Shown piece after piece: positions 545 to 11,908 of a stretch of DNA of 64,000 bases. The DNA comes from an uncultured Bacteroidota bacterium (GTDB taxonomy: Bacteria > Bacteroidota > Bacteroidia > Flavobacteriales > Flavobacteriaceae). Location: assembly GCA_902614065.1 (NCBI GenBank), contig CACMJT010000003.1, positions 1-64,000 on the forward strand. The letters run 5' to 3'. A program made the translations under genes and the position numbers. The number at the start of each line of letters is the position of its first letter. Position 1 is the first letter of the stretch. Under the pieces are notes generated by a model. It was given only the letters and a program-made list of their open reading frames with translations, ran no database searches and was not told the origin of the DNA.

Positions 545-617
545 GTTAATCCCAATTAAATTTAATGTGCTCACACTCTACGTAAGGTTAACTTAGTCCA
601 TCATTGAACCGAAGGTA

Positions 618-791
618 ATGTTAAAAGATTATGAAGTTGATGAGTTGTATGAAAAATGTGAAGGGATTAAAAAAGCAATCCAATTTGTAGAGGGAAGCAC
701 ACGTCAAGAAGTGTTACAAGGAATAGATAAACGACAACATAAAAATATATTTATGTTTAAATATATTATGTTAATTTTTCTCTATAAATGA
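618..791 (+). CDS. Possible small ORF or gene remnant (57 aa), function unknown
   Basis: An ORF of 57 codons starts at ATG 618 and stops at TGA 789. It is acidic and helical at the start (Leu-Lys-Asp-Tyr-Glu-Val-Asp-Glu-Leu-Tyr-Glu-Lys) and ends in a hydrophobic, Phe/Ile/Leu-rich tail. I do not recognise it. No convincing promoter is visible. It sits at the edge of the restriction-modification island, convergent with the McrC-like gene, so it may be a leftover of the gene that once followed rnpA. It may equally be non-coding. Confidence 0.25.
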   Translation: MLKDYEVDELYEKCEGIKKAIQFVEGSTRQEVLQGIDKRQHKNIFMFKYIMLIFLYK

Positions 792-821
792 TTCATTATT
801 GATAAACATGTTATCTATTAA

Positions 822-2192
822 TCAATGGTTACTAATTGATGCTAAAATGTTGTTAAGCTCTTTTTGCTCATCAATTTTTGAAAGAGAATTCTTTAAATTA
901 AAAGGTAGTACACTTAAGACAAGTTCACCTTCGTAAATAAAATCTTCAAGTGGTTTTTGAAAATCTGGATTGGAAGGGTAGAGCAATACAAGCCTAGGCT
1001 CTTTTGAAAGTCCATTCTTTAAATCATATTTTTTTCCATAAGCATATAGTTGATACATGTCAGATTGAGAAATATTATAGTTTTTTTTCTCCTTTGACAC
1101 ATCAAGCAATTTCCACTTTGTGTCAAATATTATTTGTTCATTATTAATCTCATTTGTAGCTACGATATCAGGCTTAAGTCTAAACTTATTCTTGTCTTTG
1201 TGATTAGATACCAAATAATATGATTTGTCTTGTGTTTTTATTTCATGGCCATCGGCATATGTTTTCATTAAGTGACCAACGTAATCCTCAAAAATTCTTT
1301 CCATAGGAAATAGGATAGCCATGTTCTTTGAGTTTCCGCTAAAGTTTGTGAATGATTTGTTCATTAAAAAAACTTCAGACCATGATATAGCTTGCTCGTA
1401 ATTTAAAAATAGGCGATTGCTACCGCTGACTTTTCTGAAATCCGACATAAAGTCCATTGATTCTTTTACTGGATCAAAATGATTCAATAATTGAAGAATA
1501 CTTGTCCTGTTGTAATGTGATTTTGAAATTCTATTCAGTTTTAATAACGTTGATTTAATCAATTGGTTATAAACCATATTATCAGAAAACTCATCATATG
1601 CACAAAAAAACTTCGCTTTATTTGAATGATTATGTTTTATGTTTAATGAATTTACAATCTTACCTTTCAGAAAGTTTAGATTTTCCTGCTTATCAACATA
1701 TTGAGATTTAAGACCGCCTCTTATTATTTTTTTTATCTCCTTTATGTAATTCTCAATAAATATTTCTAATAAAGGGAAGCTAGATGATGTTTTGAGGTGT
1801 GCTGAGCTGATGTTTAAAAATGGTGAATTCTTTAATTTACTTAACATCTTTAGAAATACCTTTTTGGTGTTAAGTAGTTCAGTATTGTAATCCTCATCAG
1901 AATAATTGAAAAATATTTTGGGTAAAATTTCCAAGGTTAAACCCCTTGAGGTTTCAATTACGCCAACATAGTTTTTTGTTTTAATTTGACGTTTTTTTCC
2001 TTTAGAATAGATTGAAAACATTCGATCTCCATCTTTCTTTTCTTCTTGATTTTGCATAATAAACTCAAGGAGGTCATTGAAAAGTTCTTTTGGCAGGTAG
2101 AGCTCCCTTAAAGATTTAAAAGATGGCTCTATGTCATAATGTTCTTTAGATCTGATAACACCATATTCTGATATTTCGTAATTTTTTCTCAC
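822..2192 (-). CDS. mcrC: McrC-like restriction nuclease subunit (LlaJI R2-type)
   Basis: This is the nuclease partner of an McrB-like GTPase. In characterised systems McrC docks on the AAA+ ring, stimulates GTP hydrolysis and cuts DNA. A PD-(D/E)xK core is visible: Lys-Pro-Asp with D342, then Phe-Asp-Thr-Lys with D357 and K359, followed by a Gln-x-Asp-Met-Tyr-Gln-Leu-x-Ala-Tyr motif near 375-384 that is typical of McrC. The length of 456 aa is usual. The start is GTG at 2190-2192, sharing one base with the stop of the upstream mcrB-like gene, so this is the last gene of the operon. The intact nuclease residues suggest an active enzyme. Confidence 0.9.
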   Translation of the reverse strand: MRKNYEISEYGVIRSKEHYDIEPSFKSLRELYLPKELFNDLLEFIMQNQEEKKDGDRMFSIYSKGKKRQIKTKNYVGVIETSRGLTLEILPKIFFNYSDEDYNTELLNTKKVFLKMLSKLKNSPFLNISSAHLKTSSSFPLLEIFIENYIKEIKKIIRGGLKSQYVDKQENLNFLKGKIVNSLNIKHNHSNKAKFFCAYDEFSDNMVYNQLIKSTLLKLNRISKSHYNRTSILQLLNHFDPVKESMDFMSDFRKVSGSNRLFLNYEQAISWSEVFLMNKSFTNFSGNSKNMAILFPMERIFEDYVGHLMKTYADGHEIKTQDKSYYLVSNHKDKNKFRLKPDIVATNEINNEQIIFDTKWKLLDVSKEKKNYNISQSDMYQLYAYGKKYDLKNGLSKEPRLVLLYPSNPDFQKPLEDFIYEGELVLSVLPFNLKNSLSKIDEQKELNNILASISNH

Positions 2193-5074
2193 TAATTCGA
2201 TTTCTTGGAATAAACAGATTTGAAAAGCTTGATTAGGTCTTCTGATTTCCCGTTAATACTGCCATCTTCGTTAGATCCCAGCAAAGCGTCATTCAATTGA
2301 AAAATGATTTTTTCGTCATAACCTTCTACTGCTTCTTCTTTACCAAATAGTGCTTTTTGTTGTGATGATTTTATGCTAAAGAACTTATTATCACTTTTAG
2401 ATTTCCAATCCTTATTATCACCAAGAACGAGTTGAATCTTTTCAAAGTCACCATAGAAATACTCGGTCAATAATGGGATAATCTCATTCTTAAATATTAA
2501 AGCTAAACCTTCAACTGTTTGATTGTCTTTTATTTTAAGAAAATAAGAATGACCAATTGTATGGTCTTTGTCAATTAAGAATTCTATTCTAGAGTTGATA
2601 GTTTCAAAAAGTAGTTTTACATCAACACCATCTATAGTTATCATCTGCCCAACCACCTTAGAATTAGGCAACATTTCTGTAAATGAAAACCTCCTCCTTA
2701 AAGCTGAATCAAGCAAGGCAATAGATTTATCAGCAGTATTCATTGTTCCTAGTATATAAAGGTTTTTTGGCACACCAAACCTTTTTTTACTATAAGGGAG
2801 TGTTACTTTTTTTGGATGCTCATCATTTTCAGCAAATAATCTTTTTGATGGTTCAATTAGTGTTATTAATTCACCAAATATTTTTGAGATATTGCCTCTG
2901 TTGATTTCATCAATTATTATAACATAATTGTTGTCTAGATCAAACTTTGCACGGTCTGAAAGCCTTCTAAAAACACCTTTTTCTAAAGAATAGGTTAATT
3001 CATTTTCACCATCTAAATTAGGCCGTATACCCTCAATAAATTCCTCATATGAATATGACTGATGAAATGTTATAAATTCAATCTGGCCTAACCCAACTCC
3101 AGTTTCATAGTTGATGTATTGACCAAATAAGCTTGGGTATTCAGACTGCCATTTATTCACGACTTCTTCGACTAAATTACTACCGGCCTCTGTTATCCGA
3201 TAATAATATCTATTAAACCTTTCTTCATGTATTTCTTCTACAAGATTTAAATCAACGAGGTTTTCAGCAACCCAACCAATCCATTTATAGTCCGAATTAC
3301 CTGTATTATTAACATCAAAATATCGCTCAACCAAATCTATTTCTTCCTCAGTTGTTGGCCTGGTTTCCCTATTTTGTTTGAACAAATCACCTTGAAGGCA
3401 CATATTTAAAGCACAAAATATTGTCTTTTCAAAAGCTGTAATATTTCTAGATGTTGGAGAAGCTTCTGTTAGAACTTTAATATATGAGCTTATTACTATT
3501 TCTGGCAGCCCTCTTTCTCTAGGCCAAGATAGTAAATCTGCAGCAGGTATAGCTTCTTCTTCTATATATGAACGTAAGTTGTTTTTAAGTTCTATTCCTG
3601 ATTCTGATAAGTGCATATCGAAACCTAATTGACCAGAAAAATCGTTATACCAATCACCCTCAATAAATCCAAATTCAGTTAGATATCTCATTCTTTGAGA
3701 CCAACCTGACCTTTTAAAACCTTCAATGTCTTTTAAATCTTCATGTAGAATGGTATTAGATGAGTCATACCTTGGGTCTAGAAAATACCCCCAAACAACC
3801 ATTGCTTTACTAAAATTACGGTAAATGCTATTAGCATTTAATTTGTTATAAATAGCTTCATCATATTCTGATCGAATATTTCGAACAATACGTTCAAATT
3901 TTTGTTCCAAATCTAAATTCTCACTATTTGAATTATTATTAATTATTTTCTCAGCTTCCGAAGAAATATTAAAAGTTTTCCCTGTACCAGGAGGTCCGTA
4001 AAAAATTTGATTTAAAGGTGTTTTCATATCTTTCATTTTTTTTGTTTCAGATTTTTTTTCTGAGACTATATTATTATCATTAAGCCATAGTTGACTTATA
4101 TTTTTAGAATAAAGTATTTTACAGTATATTAAAGTACGATTTTCTTCATTTTCAACATCAATTTCATAAGGTTCAAAAAAAGTGATTAAATCATTTACTA
4201 TACTATTAGGTTCGTAAGTTTTATGTAGTAGATTTATTGAAAACTTTTCACGATGTTTTTCACTGAGCATAGTGAGTTCGTTTTCTGGATTTTTTAGAAA
4301 ATTAATAGCATTTCTGATACTTGGTGTAAGTTGTCCTAAATCATTGTCTTCAATTTTATAATTGAGAAGTTTTTCTATCCAAGCATTCATTCTAACGCCA
4401 GCTTTTGCTATAGTTCGCTTGTCTTCATATTCATTATATATGTTCTTATTTGCAGCATGAACATCGCAATAACTAACTAACTGACCCACAATGGCAAGAA
4501 ACTTAAATTCTTTACTGTTTTTATTTAGAGCGTCAATAAACTTTGTAAATGTTGTATTTGATTCTTTGAACCTATCTAATAAAGAAATAATTTCATCGCT
4601 GGTTAAATCATTATGGTTTTCAAATTCGATTAGTTTATTTGTACCTTTTTGAAAGTTAAATGTTTCAAGTAAACATAATTTTTGAATTATCTCATTATTT
4701 AATTCTACTAAAATTTCGGGGATTAGATTAGGGTTAATTACATTCTTTATTTGATCATTCTTTTCATCAAATTTTCTTCCTAGTTCTGATTCAAAAATCT
4801 CTTTAGCTTTATTTATAACATTAACTTTTGCCCTTGAAGCAATAGTTATTTTTAATGCATCTTCAATTTGATTGTTTTCAATAATCATTTTGATTGCACT
4901 TACCCTGTTACTAAGGGTTGAAATGTTTTTCCATTTATCTTTATCGGTTATTATTGTTACAAGTTCATCTTTTGAAAGCTCCCCTTTTGTATATCTTTTT
5001 ATTTCAAAGAAATTATCTATAAAAAAATCTTTACCACAAGAAATTAAATCTCGTTTAAGTTTATCAATGCTCAT
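2192..5074 (-). CDS. mcrB: McrB-like AAA+ GTPase restriction subunit (LlaJI R1-type), with a large insertion in the motor domain
   Basis: This is the motor and DNA-recognition subunit of a GTP-dependent restriction enzyme. Residues 1-350 form an N-terminal region with no motif I recognise; in this family that part carries target recognition. The AAA+ domain follows: Walker A Gly-Pro-Pro-Gly-Thr-Gly-Lys-Thr at 360-367, Walker B Ile-Ile-Ile-Asp-Glu-Ile-Asn-Arg at about 719-726, the McrB signature Met-Asn-Thr-Ala-Asp at 778-782 and an Arg-Arg-Arg finger at 793-795. About 300 residues separate Walker A from the conserved Phe-His-Gln-Ser-Tyr block near 670, far more than in E. coli McrB. That insert looks like two winged-helix segments (about 455-500 and 595-640). 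The gene overlaps both neighbours (ATGA upstream, TAGTG downstream). Confidence 0.92.
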   Translation of the reverse strand: MSIDKLKRDLISCGKDFFIDNFFEIKRYTKGELSKDELVTIITDKDKWKNISTLSNRVSAIKMIIENNQIEDALKITIASRAKVNVINKAKEIFESELGRKFDEKNDQIKNVINPNLIPEILVELNNEIIQKLCLLETFNFQKGTNKLIEFENHNDLTSDEIISLLDRFKESNTTFTKFIDALNKNSKEFKFLAIVGQLVSYCDVHAANKNIYNEYEDKRTIAKAGVRMNAWIEKLLNYKIEDNDLGQLTPSIRNAINFLKNPENELTMLSEKHREKFSINLLHKTYEPNSIVNDLITFFEPYEIDVENEENRTLIYCKILYSKNISQLWLNDNNIVSEKKSETKKMKDMKTPLNQIFYGPPGTGKTFNISSEAEKIINNNSNSENLDLEQKFERIVRNIRSEYDEAIYNKLNANSIYRNFSKAMVVWGYFLDPRYDSSNTILHEDLKDIEGFKRSGWSQRMRYLTEFGFIEGDWYNDFSGQLGFDMHLSESGIELKNNLRSYIEEEAIPAADLLSWPRERGLPEIVISSYIKVLTEASPTSRNITAFEKTIFCALNMCLQGDLFKQNRETRPTTEEEIDLVERYFDVNNTGNSDYKWIGWVAENLVDLNLVEEIHEERFNRYYYRITEAGSNLVEEVVNKWQSEYPSLFGQYINYETGVGLGQIEFITFHQSYSYEEFIEGIRPNLDGENELTYSLEKGVFRRLSDRAKFDLDNNYVIIIDEINRGNISKIFGELITLIEPSKRLFAENDEHPKKVTLPYSKKRFGVPKNLYILGTMNTADKSIALLDSALRRRFSFTEMLPNSKVVGQMITIDGVDVKLLFETINSRIEFLIDKDHTIGHSYFLKIKDNQTVEGLALIFKNEIIPLLTEYFYGDFEKIQLVLGDNKDWKSKSDNKFFSIKSSQQKALFGKEEAVEGYDEKIIFQLNDALLGSNEDGSINGKSEDLIKLFKSVYSKKSN

Positions 5075-6111
5075 AAGTAAGTTTTAATTTTCTTAGCCAA
5101 TACATTTGCTAAAAGAGGAGGGACTGCATTCCCTATTTGTTTATATTGGCTCCCTTTAGTACCTAAAAACTCAAATGAATCTGGGAAGCTTTGAATACGC
5201 GCAGACTCTCTAGCAGTTGGTATTCTATTTGCTTCATAGTGGAAATAATTTCTATGCCCGGTATCGATAGTGTTAGAAGGTAGTTCACTATTCATCCTTT
5301 GAAAGGCTTTGTTATATTTTCTAATATTCCAATATTTGGGCGGTAAGGATTTGATATTTCCTCCATTTGGAACCATGGAGATTACATTTGTAGTTTGCTC
5401 GTTGTGAATGGTTACTTCATGGTTTTTCACAGTTTTTTTTCCATTCCGCATCAATTTCTGATACGCATTTTTTGAGGGTGAGCTATATTTTTGAATGTTA
5501 TCTTTGTTAGATTGGATAAGATCCATAATAGCTTCTTTGGTAGAAACTTTATAATCGAATTTTTCAGGGAATTCAAATTTACCCTCTAATAAGCCTACAA
5601 AAAAAACTCGTTGTCTATTTTGAGGCACACCATAATTTGAAGCGTTTAAAATTTTGTAAGAGACGTTGTATCCAATGCGTCCAAACCTTTCAATTATATC
5701 TTTTACAAAAGCACCTTTATTAGTTGACACTAATCCCCTTACATTTTCAATCAAAAAGAATTTGGGTCTTGCAACATTTACGGTCTTAAAAAACTCAAGA
5801 TATAAATGGTTTCTACTTTCGTTTATTTTTCCAATTTTTTCTGTTGTGTTGGATAGTCTTGCTGTGCTAAATCCTTGGCATGGAGGGCCTCCAATTATTC
5901 CGATAATTTTTTGTTTTTTTAAAATATCCGTAATTAATTCATCGTTGAATTTTGTAATATCCATTGTTATTCCAACCTTATCTTTTCTATTATGGTTATA
6001 GGTTTTGATAGCATCGTCCCAAAAATCAATTGCTACAACGGGTTCAAAACCATTCCATTCAAACCCCTGGCTTAATCCACCAACTCCAGAAAAGAGATCT
6101 ATTATTTTCAT
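5071..6111 (-). CDS. DNA (cytosine-5) methyltransferase, second of a tandem pair
   Basis: It transfers a methyl group from S-adenosylmethionine to C5 of cytosine in DNA. All main motifs are present: motif I Asp-Leu-Phe-Ser-Gly-Val-Gly-Gly at 5-12, the catalytic Pro-Cys-Gln-Gly loop at 77-80 (C78), Glu-Asn-Val at 122-124, the Gln-Asn-Arg-Gln-Arg block, and C-terminal Gln-Ile-Gly-Asn-Ala-Val-Pro-Pro. The length of 346 aa with a compact target-recognition region fits a restriction-modification enzyme. It overlaps the preceding methyltransferase and the mcrB-like gene by 4 bp each. Paired C5 methyltransferases usually modify the two strands of a non-palindromic site; that role is inferred here. 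Confidence 0.95.
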   Translation of the reverse strand: MKIIDLFSGVGGLSQGFEWNGFEPVVAIDFWDDAIKTYNHNRKDKVGITMDITKFNDELITDILKKQKIIGIIGGPPCQGFSTARLSNTTEKIGKINESRNHLYLEFFKTVNVARPKFFLIENVRGLVSTNKGAFVKDIIERFGRIGYNVSYKILNASNYGVPQNRQRVFFVGLLEGKFEFPEKFDYKVSTKEAIMDLIQSNKDNIQKYSSPSKNAYQKLMRNGKKTVKNHEVTIHNEQTTNVISMVPNGGNIKSLPPKYWNIRKYNKAFQRMNSELPSNTIDTGHRNYFHYEANRIPTARESARIQSFPDSFEFLGTKGSQYKQIGNAVPPLLANVLAKKIKTYL

Positions 6112-7169
6112 TTCTTATCTAAGTTTTTTTTTAATTCATCTGCTACTGCCTTTGCAAGTAAAGGGGGTACTGCATTGCCAATTTGACGATATTGACTTGT
6201 TCTACTTCCTTCCAAAATAAAATCGTCTTTGAAACTTTGTATTCTTGCTGCTTCTCTTACCGTTGGAATACGATTGTATAAAGGGTGAAAATAGTTGCTG
6301 TGTGCGTTACCAGTATCAATAGTAACTGAACAGGCTTGTTCATTTAGTCGTTTAAAAGCAGAAGAATGTCTATTGATTCTGTTGTTTGGAAAAAGTTCAG
6401 TTGGTATATCAGCCCAATTACCCCCTTGTGGTACATGACTTATTCTTTCTTGAGTTAACTGAGCAGGATATTTGATCTCATGGTTATAAATTTCCTGATT
6501 TTCTTTTCTCAAATATTTCAAATATTTATTTTTAGGTTTGGTCGCTAGTATATCCTTGGGGTTCTTGTCTAAATCATACAATTCACCAATTGCTTCTTTG
6601 ACGGTTACTTTTGATTTCTTGCTAAGCTGATCAAAATCAAAAGTTTCTTTGTAATCGTTTCTTATTGCTACAAAAAAAGCTCTAAGTCTATTTTGAGGGA
6701 CACCATAGTCCGAGGCATTGAGCACTTCACAATTCACAGTGTAACCTAAATCCTTGAGTAATTTTTCAATTCTATCTTTTGCAAACCCATTATCTCTAGT
6801 CAATATACCTCTTACATTTTCTATAACTACTGCTTTAGGTTTAAGTAATTCAACAAATCTTAAATACTCAAAAAATAGTTTATTCCTGGGGTCTTCATTT
6901 TCTTTTTGCCATCTGTTTGCAGAGGAAAACCCCTGACAAGGAGGACCGCCAACAATTACGTCAATTTTTTTGTTTCCAAAATCATTTAAAATTCTGTCAT
7001 CCTTATATTCCAATAAGCTTTCACAAATAGCTTTTGACTTGGGAAAGTTTTTCTGAAAAGTTTTTATTGAATCAGGATCAATATCAATGCCTCCAGCGAT
7101 CTTAAAACCAGCTAATTTAAATCCTAAACTGATGCCTCCACATCCAGAAAACAAGTCTAATACATTCAT
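6108..7169 (-). CDS. DNA (cytosine-5) methyltransferase, first of a tandem pair
   Basis: A full-length C5-cytosine methyltransferase of 353 aa. It has motif I Asp-Leu-Phe-Ser-Gly-Cys-Gly-Gly at 5-12, Pro-Cys-Gln-Gly at 77-80 with catalytic C78, Glu-Asn-Val at 117-119, Gln-Asn-Arg-Leu-Arg, and the final Gln-Ile-Gly-Asn-Ala-Val-Pro-Pro. It is clearly related to the downstream enzyme along its whole length, but the recognition region between about residues 190 and 290 differs, so the pair probably have different or complementary targets. It follows the small regulator with a 4-bp ATGA overlap and leads the structural part of the operon, so protection is made before the nuclease subunits. Confidence 0.95.
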   Translation of the reverse strand: MNVLDLFSGCGGISLGFKLAGFKIAGGIDIDPDSIKTFQKNFPKSKAICESLLEYKDDRILNDFGNKKIDVIVGGPPCQGFSSANRWQKENEDPRNKLFFEYLRFVELLKPKAVVIENVRGILTRDNGFAKDRIEKLLKDLGYTVNCEVLNASDYGVPQNRLRAFFVAIRNDYKETFDFDQLSKKSKVTVKEAIGELYDLDKNPKDILATKPKNKYLKYLRKENQEIYNHEIKYPAQLTQERISHVPQGGNWADIPTELFPNNRINRHSSAFKRLNEQACSVTIDTGNAHSNYFHPLYNRIPTVREAARIQSFKDDFILEGSRTSQYRQIGNAVPPLLAKAVADELKKNLDKK

Positions 7170-7366
7170 TTATTTATTTTTCTGTCTATCGGTAATGCCT
7201 TTGCATCAATATTTAATATTTCTGCAATCACATAGAGACATTCAATACTTGGTTGTTTCCGGTTTTGCACATAGCCGTTGACCATATTGTAGCTCTTGCC
7301 AAGCTTATCAGCGAGCCAAATTTGCTTAATTCCTTTCTCCTCTAAAACCTCTTTAATTCGGTTCAT
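7166..7366 (-). CDS. XRE-family helix-turn-helix regulator, restriction-modification controller (C) type
   Basis: A 66-residue DNA-binding protein made almost entirely of one Cro/C1-type helix-turn-helix (about residues 8-60; Lys-Gln-Ile-Trp-Leu-Ala-Asp-Lys-Leu-Gly as helix 2, then Met-Val-Asn-Gly-Tyr-Val-Gln-Asn-Arg). Small XRE proteins at the head of restriction-modification operons commonly delay or balance restriction. The ATG at 7364-7366 is preferred; an upstream TTG at 7390 would add 8 residues. It is the first gene of the operon and overlaps the first methyltransferase by 4 bp. A perfect inverted repeat 31 bp upstream is a likely operator for it. Confidence 0.88.
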   Translation of the reverse strand: MNRIKEVLEEKGIKQIWLADKLGKSYNMVNGYVQNRKQPSIECLYVIAEILNIDAKALPIDRKINK

Positions 7367-7397
7367 CTGGTTTAATTTTGTAGGAAACAATTTATAA

Positions 7398-7424
7398 AAA
7401 TTATCTCAATTATTGAGATAATTT
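7398..7424. promoter_or_regulatory. Perfect 13-bp inverted repeat: probable operator of the restriction-modification operon
   Basis: The half-site AAATTATCTCAAT is repeated in perfect inverse around a single central T at 7411. It lies 31 bp upstream of the regulator ATG, where the -33 region of the operon promoter would fall. A one-base centre argues against a transcription-terminator hairpin and for a dimeric protein site. The neighbouring XRE protein is the obvious candidate binder; this is inference. Confidence 0.7.
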
Positions 7425-7439
7425 ATGATTACTTAAACC

Positions 7440-7448
7440 TTATCCACA
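7440..7448 (+). promoter_or_regulatory. Single DnaA-box match (TTATCCACA)
   Basis: The nine bases are a perfect match to the DnaA box consensus TTATNCACA. I saw no second box nearby and no dnaA gene, so this is not evidence for an origin. A single match can occur by chance. Confidence 0.3.
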
Positions 7449-7737
7449 CAACACAATTGCTGGTGCAAAAAGGTTTTAGGAAGCCCTTCTCTAAATCGTG
7501 AAAATTTTGTTGATTTTCAAAAATATTTTTACAACCAAACTGTAGCTTAATGTTATGTTAGTTGTAAAAAAAGTTTTTTGTTGTTGTCGATAATTGGACT
7601 ACATTTACAAAGCATCAAGAACGCGAATGCGTACCAACCGACATCTCGTTGCACGGTGGTTTAGAATGCGGGGGTCCTCCCAAATTAACGAGAAATCCTA
7701 AATTCTCTTGTTGCGGTTTAATTTAAATTGTAATAAA
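7449..7737. other. Intergenic stretch with GC-richer, foldable segment; no gene recognised
   Basis: There is no ATG-started gene here. The part from about 7600 to 7720 is clearly richer in G and C than its surroundings and contains pairable segments: TCTCGTT at 7644-7650 with AACGAGA at 7687-7693, and ACCAACCG with CGGTGGT just around the first arm. One plus-strand frame is open from 7568 to 7723 without a start codon. It could be a structured RNA, a degraded gene or an island boundary. It does not fold as a tRNA by eye. Confidence 0.3.
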
Positions 7738-7866
7738 ATGAAAAAAAGAAAAATTCAAATAACCTTTTTTAAAAAAGAAAAGGCTGCTCAAAAACTGTTT
7801 AATATTGATAAAGAATCCCTCGAACTTTATATTGAAATGATGAGGGACAGATATGGCAAGGTTTAG
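7738..7866 (+). CDS. Small basic hypothetical protein (42 aa)
   Basis: A short ORF starting at ATG 7738, preceded by an A-rich stretch typical of weak Bacteroidota translation starts. It begins Met-Lys-Lys-Arg-Lys and then reads as an amphipathic helix with Lys/Glu alternation. Its 3' end overlaps the start of the next ORF by 14 bp in another frame. I do not recognise it. An overlapping pair of small genes beside a restriction-modification operon is compatible with a two-gene module, but nothing in the sequence proves it. Confidence 0.4.
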   Translation: MKKRKIQITFFKKEKAAQKLFNIDKESLELYIEMMRDRYGKV

Positions 7867-8056
7867 TGGTGAAGTTACTTTTCGAGTAAAATTTAAAGAC
7901 CTTGGGGTTCCTGTTGGTTTTGGAATGACGAATTCTATAATTTTTCACGAGTGCGCTACTCAGATATATGTAAGATCCGGGTGGTGTAAAATTGACAGAA
8001 AGATAAGAGACAAAAGGTTTGAGGTTGAGGTTGTTGACAAAAAAATAAATTGGTGA
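7853..8056 (+). CDS. Hypothetical protein (67 aa), unrecognised
   Basis: A 67-residue ORF from ATG 7853 to TGA 8056. Alternating hydrophobic and charged residues (Gly-Glu-Val-Thr-Phe-Arg-Val-Lys-Phe) suggest beta strands, and it has two Cys residues. No signal peptide or membrane segment is seen and no family is recognised. It starts inside the preceding 42-aa ORF, so the two would be translationally coupled. It ends 9 bp before the convergent CAP gene. It is probably part of the same accessory island as the restriction-modification operon. Confidence 0.45.
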   Translation: MARFSGEVTFRVKFKDLGVPVGFGMTNSIIFHECATQIYVRSGWCKIDRKIRDKRFEVEVVDKKINW

Positions 8057-8065
8057 TTTTTTTTG

Positions 8066-8596
8066 TCAATAAGGGTGTTCACCCATAAAGTTGCCAGCTG
8101 GGTAATATCTTGCAACAACATATACTTTACCAGATTTAGATTTTGAATATGCAATTCCAACTTTGGTTGTATTAGACCACACCATTTGAGTGTAGTGTCC
8201 TATTAAACTAAAGTTGTTTCTACTGTCTCCAATTTTAGCATATTTGAAATCTTTTTTTTCACTTAACCAAGAAACGGAGGCATCATCAAGGTGGTTTGTT
8301 TCATCAAAATAATATTTCTCATTATTTTCTTTAAAAACAAAATAGTATGATAGATATAGGTTCTCCCCTTGATTTAACTTTTCAAGATTGTTACTATGTT
8401 CAAATAAATCTTTAGTTGATAAATAGTCAGCATATTTTTGTGCATCTTTCTTAAGTTTTTCAGACCAAACTAATGGGGGTGACCCTACCTCTTCCCGAGC
8501 ATCGTTATGAACTTTAAGTGCTTTTTTTTCCTCTAGTGTTGGTTGAGAAAAGCACAAAAAAGGAAAGATTATTGTTATAAATAATACTTTTTTCAT
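8066..8596 (-). CDS. Secreted CAP (SCP/PR-1-like) domain protein
   Basis: A 176-aa protein with an N-terminal signal peptide (hydrophobic residues 4-17, probable cleavage after Cys-Phe-Ser-Gln). A CAP domain follows: His-Asn-Asp-Ala-Arg near residue 30, Gly-His-Tyr-Thr-Gln-Met-Val-Trp near 133-140, and a C-terminal Tyr-Tyr-Pro-Ala-Gly-Asn-Phe block. CAP proteins are secreted or periplasmic and of varied, mostly unproven function in bacteria. The ATG overlaps the stop of the upstream acetyltransferase gene by 4 bp, making it the last gene of an rpiB-acetyltransferase-CAP operon. Confidence 0.87.
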   Translation of the reverse strand: MKKVLFITIIFPFLCFSQPTLEEKKALKVHNDAREEVGSPPLVWSEKLKKDAQKYADYLSTKDLFEHSNNLEKLNQGENLYLSYYFVFKENNEKYYFDETNHLDDASVSWLSEKKDFKYAKIGDSRNNFSLIGHYTQMVWSNTTKVGIAYSKSKSGKVYVVARYYPAGNFMGEHPY

Positions 8597-9030
8597 TCAA
8601 AAAACATTGCTGTGTGTGCAATATTATCTTCAAGGTACTCTTCCCCTGTTGCTGTAAAGCCGTGAGAAGCATAAAACCTTTTCAAATATGATTGCGCAGA
8701 AATTTTAATAGGGCTTTCTTTTTTGTTTTTTAAATATTTTATTGATTCTTTAACCAGCACATGTCCATAACCTTTGCCTCTGTATTTTTTTTTAACAACC
8801 GTCCTGCCAAAAGAAGCTTCTTTGAAATACGTGTTTTTAGGAAAAATTCTAGTATACCCACAAAGAATACTGTTTTCATACAATAAAAGATGATCTGCTT
8901 CTGGGTCTCTTCCATCAACATCTTGAAAAGGGCATTCCTGCTCAACAATAAAAACTTCAGATCTCAAACTAAAAATGCTTTGAACCTCATTTATAGAAAG
9001 GTCGTCCCATTTTTTTATAAGTGTTTGCAT
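8593..9030 (-). CDS. elaA: GNAT-family N-acetyltransferase, ElaA-like
   Basis: A 145-aa single-domain acetyltransferase. The N-terminus (Leu-Arg-Ser-Glu-Val-Phe-Ile-Val-Glu-Gln, then Cys-Pro-Phe-Gln-Asp-Val-Asp-Gly-Arg-Asp) matches the ElaA family. The acetyl-CoA loop appears as Gly-Arg-Thr-Val-Val-Lys-Lys-Lys-Tyr-Arg-Gly-Lys-Gly-Tyr-Gly around residues 74-88. The C-terminus Phe-Tyr-Ala-Ser-His-Gly-Phe is typical of GNAT proteins. The substrate is unknown. It lies one base downstream of rpiB and overlaps the CAP gene, so the three are cotranscribed. Confidence 0.88.
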   Translation of the reverse strand: MQTLIKKWDDLSINEVQSIFSLRSEVFIVEQECPFQDVDGRDPEADHLLLYENSILCGYTRIFPKNTYFKEASFGRTVVKKKYRGKGYGHVLVKESIKYLKNKKESPIKISAQSYLKRFYASHGFTATGEEYLEDNIAHTAMFFE

Positions 9031-9031
9031 T

Positions 9032-9469
9032 TTAAGAGTTTTTTTTATTTATTTTATCAACTCTTCTTTCGTGTCTTCCTCCTTCAAATTCAGTGTTAAG
9101 AAATATTTCTACCATTTCAATGGCTTCTTTTTTTTCCAAAAACCTAGCGGGTAATGATAGAACATTTGCGTTGTTGTGCGATCTGGATAGTTTAGCTGTT
9201 TCTTTGTTCCAACACAAAGCTGATCTTACGCCTTTGTGTTTGTTTGCAGACATGCTAACCCCTATTCCGCTTCCACATATTATTATCCCTTTTAGGTTTT
9301 CGTTATTAGATATTTTCTCAGCCAAAGGGTGTGCAAAGTCTGGATAATCCACACTTTCTTCGGTGTCGCATCCTAAATTTATCACGCCATAACCTTTATT
9401 TTCTAAAACCTTTTTTATTTCATTTTTCAAAGATGTTCCTGCATGATCATTCGCTAATAATATGTTCAT
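9032..9469 (-). CDS. rpiB: Ribose-5-phosphate isomerase B
   Basis: It interconverts ribose 5-phosphate and ribulose 5-phosphate in the non-oxidative pentose phosphate pathway. The 145-aa length is standard. Diagnostic features are Asn-Asp-His-Ala-Gly at 7-11, the catalytic Cys65 in Cys-Gly-Ser-Gly-Ile-Gly, and His98 in His-Asn-Asn-Ala-Asn-Val. It opens the minus-strand operon rpiB-elaA-CAP and is divergent from rnr across a 342-bp AT-rich gap. The close relative LacB/RpiB of allose metabolism cannot be excluded, but no sugar operon is present. Confidence 0.93.
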   Translation of the reverse strand: MNILLANDHAGTSLKNEIKKVLENKGYGVINLGCDTEESVDYPDFAHPLAEKISNNENLKGIIICGSGIGVSMSANKHKGVRSALCWNKETAKLSRSHNNANVLSLPARFLEKKEAIEMVEIFLNTEFEGGRHERRVDKINKKNS

Positions 9470-9811
9470 AAGCCTATTACTAATTGTTTATAAGTTTGAT
9501 TGTTTTTGAAAACTCCTTTTTTATCATACTTTTTAAACAAATTTAATCTAATTATTGACATAATATTTTTTTTAATTTATCAACCTTAATTGTTTTAGTA
9601 TTCTTTTAATATCTTATCTAACTGATTGTAAATAAGTGTTTTTTGAATGAACTGTTTTGTTAAAAATCTATTGATAACTGCATCAAACTTGTATACTATT
9701 TTTTTTATAACACATATTAACAAACAATCATCATTATAAGATTAATGATTAATAAGAATTGTTGATTTTTATAAAAGTTCATCAATTAAGACATAATTTT
9801 ATAATCTCTTA
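9470..9811. other. AT-rich divergent intergenic region between rpiB and rnr
   Basis: It has 342 bp with very few G or C and no ORF of note. It must hold promoters for rpiB (minus) and rnr (plus). A minus-strand TAAATTTG element at 9538-9545 matches the Bacteroidota -7 consensus and would give rpiB a leader of about 60 bases. No clear plus-strand element near rnr was found. No DnaA boxes or iterons were seen, so I do not call it an origin. Confidence 0.5.
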
Positions 9812-11908
9812 ATGAACAAAATAGATCTTAATATTTTAGAAAAAAAAGTAGCTAGCCTTTTCTTTGGAAACAAGAAAAAATCATATAACATAAAACAAAT
9901 TAAGTTTTTTTTAAATGTTATGATTGACTCAATTTATATCAAAGATTTATTGAGAAATCTTTTTCTTAAAAAATGCATCAACATAAGCGAACACGATAAA
10001 TATAGCTTTAACAAAAGCTCAGTTTTTTTAGTTGGTATTATAGGAAAAAGAAAAGGTAAATTAATTGACTTACAATCATCTGTGGAGCTTGAGATTAGTA
10101 GAAAAGAAAGTGCAGGGTTTTTTGAAAATGATACTGTTTACTATTCAATTAACAAAAAAGGCAAAGTGAATATTTTATCAATAAAAAAAAGAGTAGATCA
10201 AAAGTTTGTTGGAGAGGTTGAAATTAATAAAAACATAAAAAGCGTTTTTATAAGAAAACAAAATGTGAGATTTATAATAGAAGACAGACAGGCAAAAAAA
10301 GAAGACTTGGTTGTTGTAAGACTAAAAGATTGGAGGTATGAAGATCCAGAGGGAGAGGTTTTAAAAGTTATTGGTAAATCATCTGACAGCGAGGCACAAA
10401 CGCATGCAATTTTAGAAGAGTTTTCTCTACCATATGTTTTTTCAGACAAGGTTGAGCAAGAAACAAACAGTATAAAAAAAGAATTAGATATAGAAAAGTA
10501 CAGGGAAGATCAAACAAGCAAACTAACATTTACAATTGATCCAGAAGACGCAAAAGATTTCGATGACGCACTTTCTTTTAAAAAACTAGAAGATTCAAGT
10601 ACTGAAGTGGGTGTTCATATTGCAGACGTATCTCATTATGTAAAAACAAAAACGGAATTAGATAAAGAAGCTTTTTATAGAGCAACAAGCGTTTATTTAG
10701 CCGACAGGGTTGTTCCTATGTTGCCAGAAAAACTATCTAACGATTTATGTTCGTTAAATCCTAGAGAGAAAAAGAATGTTTTTTCTGTTTTTTTTATTTT
10801 CAGTAAGAACTATAAAATTTCAAACATAAGGTTTTGCAAATCTCTTATTGTATCAGACGAAAGATTTTCCTACGAAGAAGCTCAACACATAATAGAAAGT
10901 AAAGAAAAAACCATACCTGCAGAAAAAACCATTTTAGGTAAAGAAAAAAAAGTAAATCAAACCCTTTTCGATTCAATAAAACAACTTTATTCAATATCCA
11001 AATCATTAAAAAAAGAAAGAGAAGAAAAAGGATCTATCTTTTTTAATAAAGAAGAAATAAGGTTTGATGTTGATAAAAAAGGAAACCCTATTGGATATAA
11101 AATAAAAAAACAAAAAGAAGCAAATTTTTTAATCGAAGAATTTATGTTGTTGGCTAATAAAGCTGTTGCTACAAAGATAAAAGATCATACGCGAACAGGT
11201 GTTTACCGTGTTCATGATTTGCCGGATGAAAAAAAACTTGTAGAAATAGATAGCTTTATTAAAAACTTAGGATATAACAACAGGCTGGTTAACGCGAAGA
11301 GTGTAAACAAAGAAATAAACAGCCTATTAAAATCATGTGAGGGCAAGCCAGAAAAAAACGTTATAGATATGATGGTGATCCGAGCAATGAGTAAAGCAAA
11401 ATACAGCTCTCAAAACATAGGTCATTTTGGATTAAAATTTGAAAACTATTCTCATTTTACATCGCCAATAAGAAGATACCCAGACTTAATGGTTCACAGA
11501 ATACTTTTTTCTATTTTAAAAAAGGAAAAGTTCCACGACAAAGATATTGAAGAAAAGTGCCTTCATTTCAGTCAAAGAGAAGAGTTAGCCACTAAAGCCG
11601 AAAGAGCCTCTATCAAATTAATGCAAGTTAAATATATGTCAGAACGGTTAAATGAAAAATTTACCGGCATTATTTCGGGTATAAACGAAAGAGGAGTTTT
11701 TGTAGAGATTACATCCAATAAGTGTGAAGGGTTTGTTAGAATGAAAGACATTCCAGATGATTATTTTGTTTATGACTTTAAAACAAACACACTAATAGGT
11801 CAAAACACCAAAGAAGAATACTGTCTAGGAGACAAAGTTCTTATAAGAGTTCAAAAAACAGACTTTGAAAAAAAACACATTGACTTTAAGATCATAAGCA
11901 AGTCATAA
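9812..11908 (+). CDS. rnr: Ribonuclease R (RNB-family 3'-5' exoribonuclease)
   Basis: A processive exoribonuclease that degrades structured RNA. Of its 698 aa, residues 1-225 hold a winged-helix/cold-shock N-terminal part. The RNB catalytic domain covers about 230-560, with the metal-binding cluster Ile-Asp-Pro-Glu-Asp-Ala-Lys-Asp-Phe-Asp-Asp at 242-252, and the Ser-Pro-Ile-Arg-Arg-Tyr-Pro-Asp-Leu block near 550. An S1 RNA-binding domain occupies about 615-695. It is followed after 20 bp by a LysE-type gene on the same strand. The protein is rich in Lys, reflecting the low GC. Confidence 0.96.
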   Translation: MNKIDLNILEKKVASLFFGNKKKSYNIKQIKFFLNVMIDSIYIKDLLRNLFLKKCINISEHDKYSFNKSSVFLVGIIGKRKGKLIDLQSSVELEISRKESAGFFENDTVYYSINKKGKVNILSIKKRVDQKFVGEVEINKNIKSVFIRKQNVRFIIEDRQAKKEDLVVVRLKDWRYEDPEGEVLKVIGKSSDSEAQTHAILEEFSLPYVFSDKVEQETNSIKKELDIEKYREDQTSKLTFTIDPEDAKDFDDALSFKKLEDSSTEVGVHIADVSHYVKTKTELDKEAFYRATSVYLADRVVPMLPEKLSNDLCSLNPREKKNVFSVFFIFSKNYKISNIRFCKSLIVSDERFSYEEAQHIIESKEKTIPAEKTILGKEKKVNQTLFDSIKQLYSISKSLKKEREEKGSIFFNKEEIRFDVDKKGNPIGYKIKKQKEANFLIEEFMLLANKAVATKIKDHTRTGVYRVHDLPDEKKLVEIDSFIKNLGYNNRLVNAKSVNKEINSLLKSCEGKPEKNVIDMMVIRAMSKAKYSSQNIGHFGLKFENYSHFTSPIRRYPDLMVHRILFSILKKEKFHDKDIEEKCLHFSQREELATKAERASIKLMQVKYMSERLNEKFTGIISGINERGVFVEITSNKCEGFVRMKDIPDDYFVYDFKTNTLIGQNTKEEYCLGDKVLIRVQKTDFEKKHIDFKIISKS

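Follow-up and report, generated by a model that had tools for sequence, protein, structure and literature searches.

An McrBC-type GTPase and nuclease encoded in one operon with two C5-cytosine (m5C) methyltransferases raises the question of whether the pair attacks modified DNA or is instead the restriction arm of a system in which the methyltransferases protect the host. We address this question for an operon of a marine host, contained in a 64,000 nt stretch of DNA (the window, to which all coordinates refer), by comparing its genes with those of related loci and of known systems.

An Operon of Five Overlapping Genes

Five minus-strand genes occupy positions 822–7366, with overlaps between neighbors, from the first gene to the last, of 4, 4, 4, and 1 bp. 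The operon is headed by a Cro/C1-type, C-protein-like HTH regulator gene (7166–7366; 66 aa from its ATG; HTH_3, E 2.3e-8, 34 bits), followed by the C5-cytosine DNA methyltransferase genes M1 (6108–7169; 353 aa; PF00145, DNA_methylase, 263.6 bits) and M2 (5071–6111; 346 aa; PF00145, 253.1 bits), by R1, coding for a McrB-type AAA+ GTPase (2192–5074; 960 aa; AAA_5, nearest NCBIfam model McrB), and by R2, coding for a McrC-type PD-(D/E)xK nuclease (822–2192; 456 aa; GTG start; PF10117, McrBC, 290 bits, E 2.2e-86). The original prediction, made from the letters of the DNA, had listed these genes with overlaps of 1–4 bp, and ORFs, Pfam families and motifs all agree with it. Chance is not a satisfactory explanation for the operon, because all five genes recur in the same order at a second locus, L059, described below. 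No m5C gene other than M1 and M2 was found in the host assembly (1.36 Mb, 87% complete), and R2 is absent from all 22 other genomes of the host genus. We consider it likely that these genes form a complete restriction-modification (R-M) system, Type II-like and built on an McrBC chassis.

The operon is located between rnpA (215–544) and a GNAT-RpiB-RNase R block (8593–11908), and the content of this interval (545–8592) varies within the genus (loci L249–L257). The interval is empty, with only 163 bp, in the congener G412, and contains a type I R-M system and a GmrSD/Schlafen-type protein gene in G407. In G404 it is occupied by an m5C methyltransferase gene together with one for an NgoFVII-C protein, and in G402 by HATPase genes and an m5C/MTaX1 pair. 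Given this variation, the operon resembles a mobile element inserted into a variable defence site. The window also contains a gene for a CAP-domain (SCP-like) protein between the operon and the GNAT gene (8066–8596), with a relative in the corresponding position of G402 (L251). Additionally, a short plus-strand stretch that resembles coding sequence (around 600–790), possibly a gene remnant, lies in the segment between rnpA and the end of R2 (545–821).

The Regulator and Its Operator-Like Palindrome

A perfect operator-like palindrome of 27 bp, AAATTATCTCAA-TAA-TTGAGATAATTT (7398–7424, unstranded), ends 31 bp before the ATG of the regulator gene; no other perfect palindrome in the 64-kb window has arms of at least 11 bp and a spacer of at most 8. 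A small HTH gene thus heads an R-M operon and is preceded, in its own putative promoter, by an operator-like palindrome, which is the arrangement of C-protein-type regulators. The core of the palindrome, CTCA-N5-TGAG, also occurs upstream of the regulator gene of L059, whose product is 86% identical, and upstream of a gene at locus L067 coding for a methyltransferase fused to an HTH, the N-terminus of which is 72% identical to the regulator.

The regulator family (MNRIKEVLEEKGIKQ...) was found in 21 of 149 Bacteroidia genomes, its members immediately preceding genes of type I-like, m5C, HATPase-type and other kinds (L221–L231), as assigned from the N-termini of the downstream products by inspection and with one HMM. 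The family members that were read have a TATCTCA-N5-TGAGATA-like site, which lies 43–49 bp upstream in nearly all of them and 35 bp upstream in the window. Although the site had p-values below 0.02 in 9 of 13 loci, these values are optimistic because the consensus was drawn from the same loci, and the positional clustering of the sites is a stronger point than the p-values of individual loci. The dedicated regulator that had been predicted for this operon is there, and belongs to a family that is widespread on Bacteroidia defence operons, of which it is possibly a general regulator; together with the shared site, it points to one control element across many of these operons. We also considered RptR as the family of the regulator and rejected it, as it is a different family of small repressors with a 6-bp TAGCTA site, mainly from Gammaproteobacteria (PMC12255303).

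Methyltransferases M1 and M2 and Their Recognition Site

M1 and M2 each contain motifs I (DLFSG.GG), IV (PPCQGF), VI (ENV), VIII (QNRxR), and X (GNAVPP), as expected for type II m5C methyltransferases, so that both are intact, as had been claimed. They are paralogues with 42% identity (BLASTP), and their target recognition domains (TRDs) can be aligned but clearly differ from each other. Conservation with related systems was not uniform along the proteins: the TRD regions of M1 and M2 are 95 and 97% identical, respectively, to those of L059 vs. 86 and 88% elsewhere in the proteins, and 73 and 71% identical to those of locus L065 vs. 60 and 51% elsewhere. Since the TRDs are more conserved than the remainder, the systems from the window and L059 probably share one site, and the values for L065 also suggest a shared site. 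The nearest plasmid homologues of M1 and M2, with 42–49% identity, are the "Ma" methyltransferases from two-methyltransferase systems of the NgoFVII and BpuJI types, the latter also occurring in Bacteroidia (L215/L216). The NgoFVII site, GCSGC, is symmetric except for the central base, and that of BpuJI, CCCGT, is asymmetric. No 4- to 6-mer stood out as depleted in 1.09 Mb of host sequence, where GCSGC (1.31) and GACGC (0.94) were not depleted either; therefore, we do not propose a recognition site.

Relatives Carrying the Same Methyltransferase Pair

Locus L059, from a Saprospiraceae MAG, reproduces the whole operon with its gene order unchanged, with identities of 86% for the HTH regulator, 88% for M1, 90% for M2, and 89% for R2. 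By comparison with L059, R1 is a mosaic, with 85% identity in residues 720–960, 60% in 120–335, 34% in an insert within the GTPase domain (385–655), and 31% in 1–120. Synonymous divergence between both loci is high throughout (dS about 0.65–1.7 for the genes other than R1), and dN is about 0.06 for M1, M2, and R2 vs. 0.71 for the R1 insert. The initial three quarters of R1 may have been swapped with those of a relative of the same specificity, or else may evolve fast. L065, from a SAR116 single-cell genome, has the same methyltransferase pair, with 64 and 55% overall identity and in divergent orientation, as well as R2 and an R1 that lacks the N-terminal domain and begins at the GTPase domain, insert included; no HTH gene was identified at this locus.

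R2 Belongs to an McrC Subclade with Methyltransferase Pairs

The catalytic PD...DTK of R2 (residues 341–359; 1116–1172, minus strand) is invariant across McrC relatives, and the McrB-type GTPase of R1, with its NxxD motif, together with a PF10117 nuclease containing PD-D/ExK, place the two proteins in the McrBC family. We retrieved R2 relatives with a genome-wide scan, of which the best 80 were retained, and called tight methyltransferase pairs at their loci by HMM search. In trees built without BsuMI sequences, the METHYLTRANSFERASE-pair subclade of McrBC groups seven McrCs, including R2 from the window, with support of 98/95 and inside the McrC tree. Methyltransferase pairs adjoin six of these seven members (the window, L059, L065, L060, L061, and L067); the exception is L062, a stand-alone McrBC with a MrcB_N domain, of the methylcytosine-reader type. 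Five of the best 80 relatives (L059, L060, L061, L065, and L067) thus have a tight pair, and none was found by HMM search at the remaining loci, some of which have type I methyltransferases farther off; a single m5C gene occurs at L088, two genes upstream of R1. Most other R2 relatives are stand-alone McrBC systems, which in some cases contain a modified-base reader (EVE or MrcB_N); the EVE domain is carried by other Bacteroidota relatives such as L064. The pair label clusters on the R2 tree, with 0 of 500 label shuffles as low, and the pair may have arisen once (p-AU 0.208, a single origin not being rejected). As to the grouping with McrBC that the original prediction had named as a refutation, R1 and R2 do fall in McrBC proper, but within a subclade where methyltransferase pairs are the rule (six of seven members). 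R2 relatives were not found in viral contigs, and phage records yielded distant McrC matches only.

The partners of McrBC differ among subclade members, which have methyltransferase pairs of three kinds. The window and L059 combine the m5C pair with the HTH regulator, and L065 has the same pair; L067 has two m5C methyltransferases, the first of which (M1) carries the HTH as a fusion, whereas L060 and L061 contain two methyltransferases of the D12 class, which Pfam describes as N6-adenine-specific, with an S24-type regulator at L060. The R1 proteins from L060 and L067 (D12-class vs. m5C) are 62% identical from Walker A to the end, but their N-termini are unrelated, with an alignment score of 15 that equals the shuffled mean, and so are their methyltransferases; conversely, L060 and L061, which have the same methyltransferases, share an R1 N-terminus with 67% identity. 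These comparisons indicate that the recognition regions of R1 change together with the methyltransferases.

The searches also uncovered other McrBC-type loci. Several McrC relatives from Spirosoma and Larkinella have an intact PD-DxK and no adjacent McrB (L070, L097, L111, L114, L116, L135; Larkinella loci L072–L078, L123); most of them have, just downstream, a gene of ~438 aa that at L036 was identified as coding for a GntP permease. These loci are possibly split or domesticated McrBC systems. In L058, from a plasmid of Runella sp. SP2, McrB- and McrC-like genes are located inside a BREX cluster, between the methyltransferase gene and pglZ. Likewise, L219 (G194), from the family of the host, contains another McrB-like R-M candidate with an N6_N4-type and an m5C methyltransferase, a 613-aa AAA_5 protein, and two proteins of 559 and 502 aa without Pfam matches.

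R1 Contains an McrB Motor and a Pair-Associated Insert

The GTPase motifs of R1 are intact, with Walker A as GPPGTGKT (360), Walker B (719), and NxxD as MNTAD (778). A phmmer search of the PDB with R1 retrieved McrB from T. gammatolerans (E 1e-55) and E. coli (E 1e-36), and structures of these two proteins (6ut5, 6hz4) were also the best Foldseek matches to the R1 model, which matched YdiS from BsuMI (9a5m) more weakly than McrB.

The N-terminal region of R1 (residues 1–350; 4025–5074, minus strand) had no Pfam match and no PDB sequence match, and is all-helical in an AF2 model of low confidence. Residues 136–323 are common to the McrB proteins from L050 and L139, that from L050 being nested in a type I locus and having no m5C methyltransferases of its own. 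We found no site-reading domain of a known family in R1, where neither a DUF3578, YTH, or EVE reader nor any modified-base reader over the Pfam cut-off was detected. The lack of a known reader was rejected as proof of an R-M system and counts as weak evidence, because a recognised reader occurs in just 7–8 of 55 stand-alone relatives.

Between Walker A and the next core strand, R1 contains an insert of ~280 aa (residues 381–660; 3095–3934, minus strand), which is a candidate specificity module. Its AF2 model, built from three sequences, had a pLDDT of 75.9 and a pTM of 0.78, and predicts a tandem winged-helix-like fold; this likeness is suggestive only, because the best Foldseek matches, to the winged helices of MarR, PadR, and RTP, had E values of 0.1–0.5 and all hits were above 0.09. 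In PDB sequences the insert matched 4gl6 (E 0.008). Among the R1 proteins of the best 80 R2 relatives, the insert is present only in L059 and L065, and it therefore accompanies M1/M2-type methyltransferases in three of three cases, including the window, and no other type. A profile of the insert gave only marginal matches in 394 other Bacteroidia genomes and none in IMG/VR. Pairwise identity of the insert is 34–36% in all three pairings of the window, L059, and L065.

A Predicted GTP-Driven R-M System and Its Alternatives

The pairing of an McrBC nuclease machinery with two methyltransferases and a regulator indicates that the operon most likely cuts unmethylated foreign DNA, and a predicted GTP-driven R-M system is the most economical reading of its gene content. 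In such a system, M1 and M2 would methylate cytosines in a fixed sequence of the host, most simply with one strand or half-site each, and the R1 ring would recognise the same sequence when unmethylated, through the GTPase insert and/or the N-terminal region. By analogy with its family, R1 would then translocate using GTP and bring R2 to cut the invading DNA. The regulator, like C proteins, could bind the palindrome in its own promoter, and thereby time, delay, or limit the expression of the operon.

Some observations count against an R-M function: R1 yielded no site-reading domain from any known family, the insert is only 34% identical between the window and L059 in spite of TRDs with 95–97% identity, part of the R1 N-terminus is shared with L050, L062 falls inside the subclade, and no motif is clearly depleted in the host. 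The low identity of the insert would fit, however, a putative replacement of the first three quarters of R1 from a relative with the same specificity. The occurrence of the N-terminal domain in an McrB nested in a type I locus and the MrcB_N reader of L062, along with the position of R1 and R2 in McrBC proper, would also agree with an ordinary Type IV McrBC that is merely cotranscribed with an m5C pair and targets modified DNA of foreign origin. We nevertheless find this quite improbable, since the M1-M2-R1-R2 unit is kept in L059, methyltransferase pairs are present in six of seven subclade members and the insert co-occurs with one methyltransferase type in three of three loci; besides, with two active m5C methyltransferases next to it, a nuclease that cuts m5C-containing DNA would put its own genome at risk, except if it had a different target. 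It is similarly unlikely, although slightly less so, that specificity resides in the methyltransferases and that these recruit R1-R2 as a nuclease module, in a complex like those of types I and III. This would account for the strongly kept TRDs next to R1 non-motor regions that are 31–60% identical between the window and L059, and for an R1 devoid of any N-terminal domain in L065, but LlaJI R1 alone binds its site specifically (PMC1459862), the R1 N-terminus varies with the methyltransferase type, and the insert tracks M1/M2.

Within the R-M reading, the original prediction assigned one methyltransferase to each strand of an asymmetric site, which is a putative assignment. The two enzymes might otherwise share a single palindromic site, as in BsuMI, or recognise a different site each, as could be expected from paralogues with alignable TRDs whose nearest plasmid homologues come from both NgoFVII-type and BpuJI-type systems. 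We regard this as rather unlikely, although a good deal more plausible than the two alternatives above, because the TRDs of M1 and M2 clearly differ and L059 and L065 conserve each of them separately, which is expected for two distinct strands or half-sites.

How McrBC chooses between methylated and unmethylated DNA is poorly understood. As a tentative extension of the R-M reading, which we hold with less confidence than the R-M reading itself, McrBC could be an interchangeable motor-nuclease chassis that has been re-coupled, within one nuclease clade, to m5C or D12-class pairs with exchange of R1 recognition modules, the insert being a new site-reading module. If so, one machine could serve either as a modification-dependent enzyme or as a methyl-protected one, and a winged-helix-like insert in the R1 ring would be viable even without the N-terminal domain, as in L065. 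The nucleases of the subclade are about 43–89% identical, and the chemistry of the methyltransferases and the recognition region of R1 vary among its members; relatives this close, plus the MrcB_N relative without methyltransferases, make the switch testable by domain exchange, and in L065 a role of the GTPase insert as specificity module can be tested directly.

Comparison with Known Systems

The original prediction saw the operon as LlaJI-like, and the organisation is indeed the same: in LlaJI, for which we used the sequences from a plasmid of Lactococcus strain DRC3 (L206), a single operon contains two m5C methyltransferase genes and, after them, those for an McrB-like R1 and a PD-D/ExK R2. 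LlaJI, from Lactococcus plasmid pNP40, restricts unmethylated DNA, although it was inactive in vitro (PMC1459862). Membership in the LlaJI family did not stand, and we consider it very improbable. LlaJI R2 belongs to RE_LlaJI (PF09563), whereas R2 from the window belongs to McrBC (PF10117) and at E ≤ 1 matches neither PF09563 nor, by BLASTP, LlaJI R2; the motor of R1 is closer to E. coli McrB (39% identity) than to LlaJI R1 (29%), and M1 and M2 are just 26–29% identical to the LlaJI methyltransferases. As R2 family, R1 motor, and methyltransferase identities all point elsewhere, the operon is not LlaJI by descent. An H. pylori homologue of LlaJI R1 was reported to have a B3-type N-terminus (PMC7680126); none was recognised by Pfam or PDB sequence searches in R1 from the window, the N-terminus of which is modelled as helical at low confidence. 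LlaJI also lacks a separate regulator gene, its transcription reportedly being under the control of its methyltransferases (PMC11779793), whereas the window operon has one.

BsuMI, from B. subtilis, and LlaI are likewise R-M systems with an McrB-like subunit. Two methyltransferases serve one palindrome in BsuMI. The restriction cassettes of both systems consist of three ORFs, with a short McrB-like subunit (PMC1459862). Systems of the NgoFVII and BpuJI types, as in p275D, the Acinetobacter plasmid pANC7914.1 and L215/L216 from Bacteroidia, also have two methyltransferases, and p275D an HTH gene as well, but their nucleases are unrelated (PLD or BpuJI/NOV_C) and they lack McrBC.

The stand-alone Type IV McrBC systems from E. 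coli and T. gammatolerans belong to the same families as the R1 motor and R2. Type IV systems have a modified-base reader and no cognate methyltransferase; in contrast, the window operon contains two methyltransferases and a regulator. In the sections consulted, the census of Bell et al. (2024) describes methyltransferase association across every branch of the McrB tree, and considers that insertions in the McrB GTPase domain likely encode specificity domains (PMC11090510). McrBC-like R-M systems such as LlaJI and BsuMI (PMC1459862) and methyltransferase-associated McrBC in general (PMC11090510) are thus already known. The operon type from the window, the exchange of pairs, and the linkage between insert and methyltransferases are not described in those sections of the census (PMC11090510). 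Judged against the sections consulted, what appears to be additional is a subclade of McrC proper with several kinds of methyltransferase pairs, an insert tied to one of these pairs, and a regulator with a shared operator-like site.
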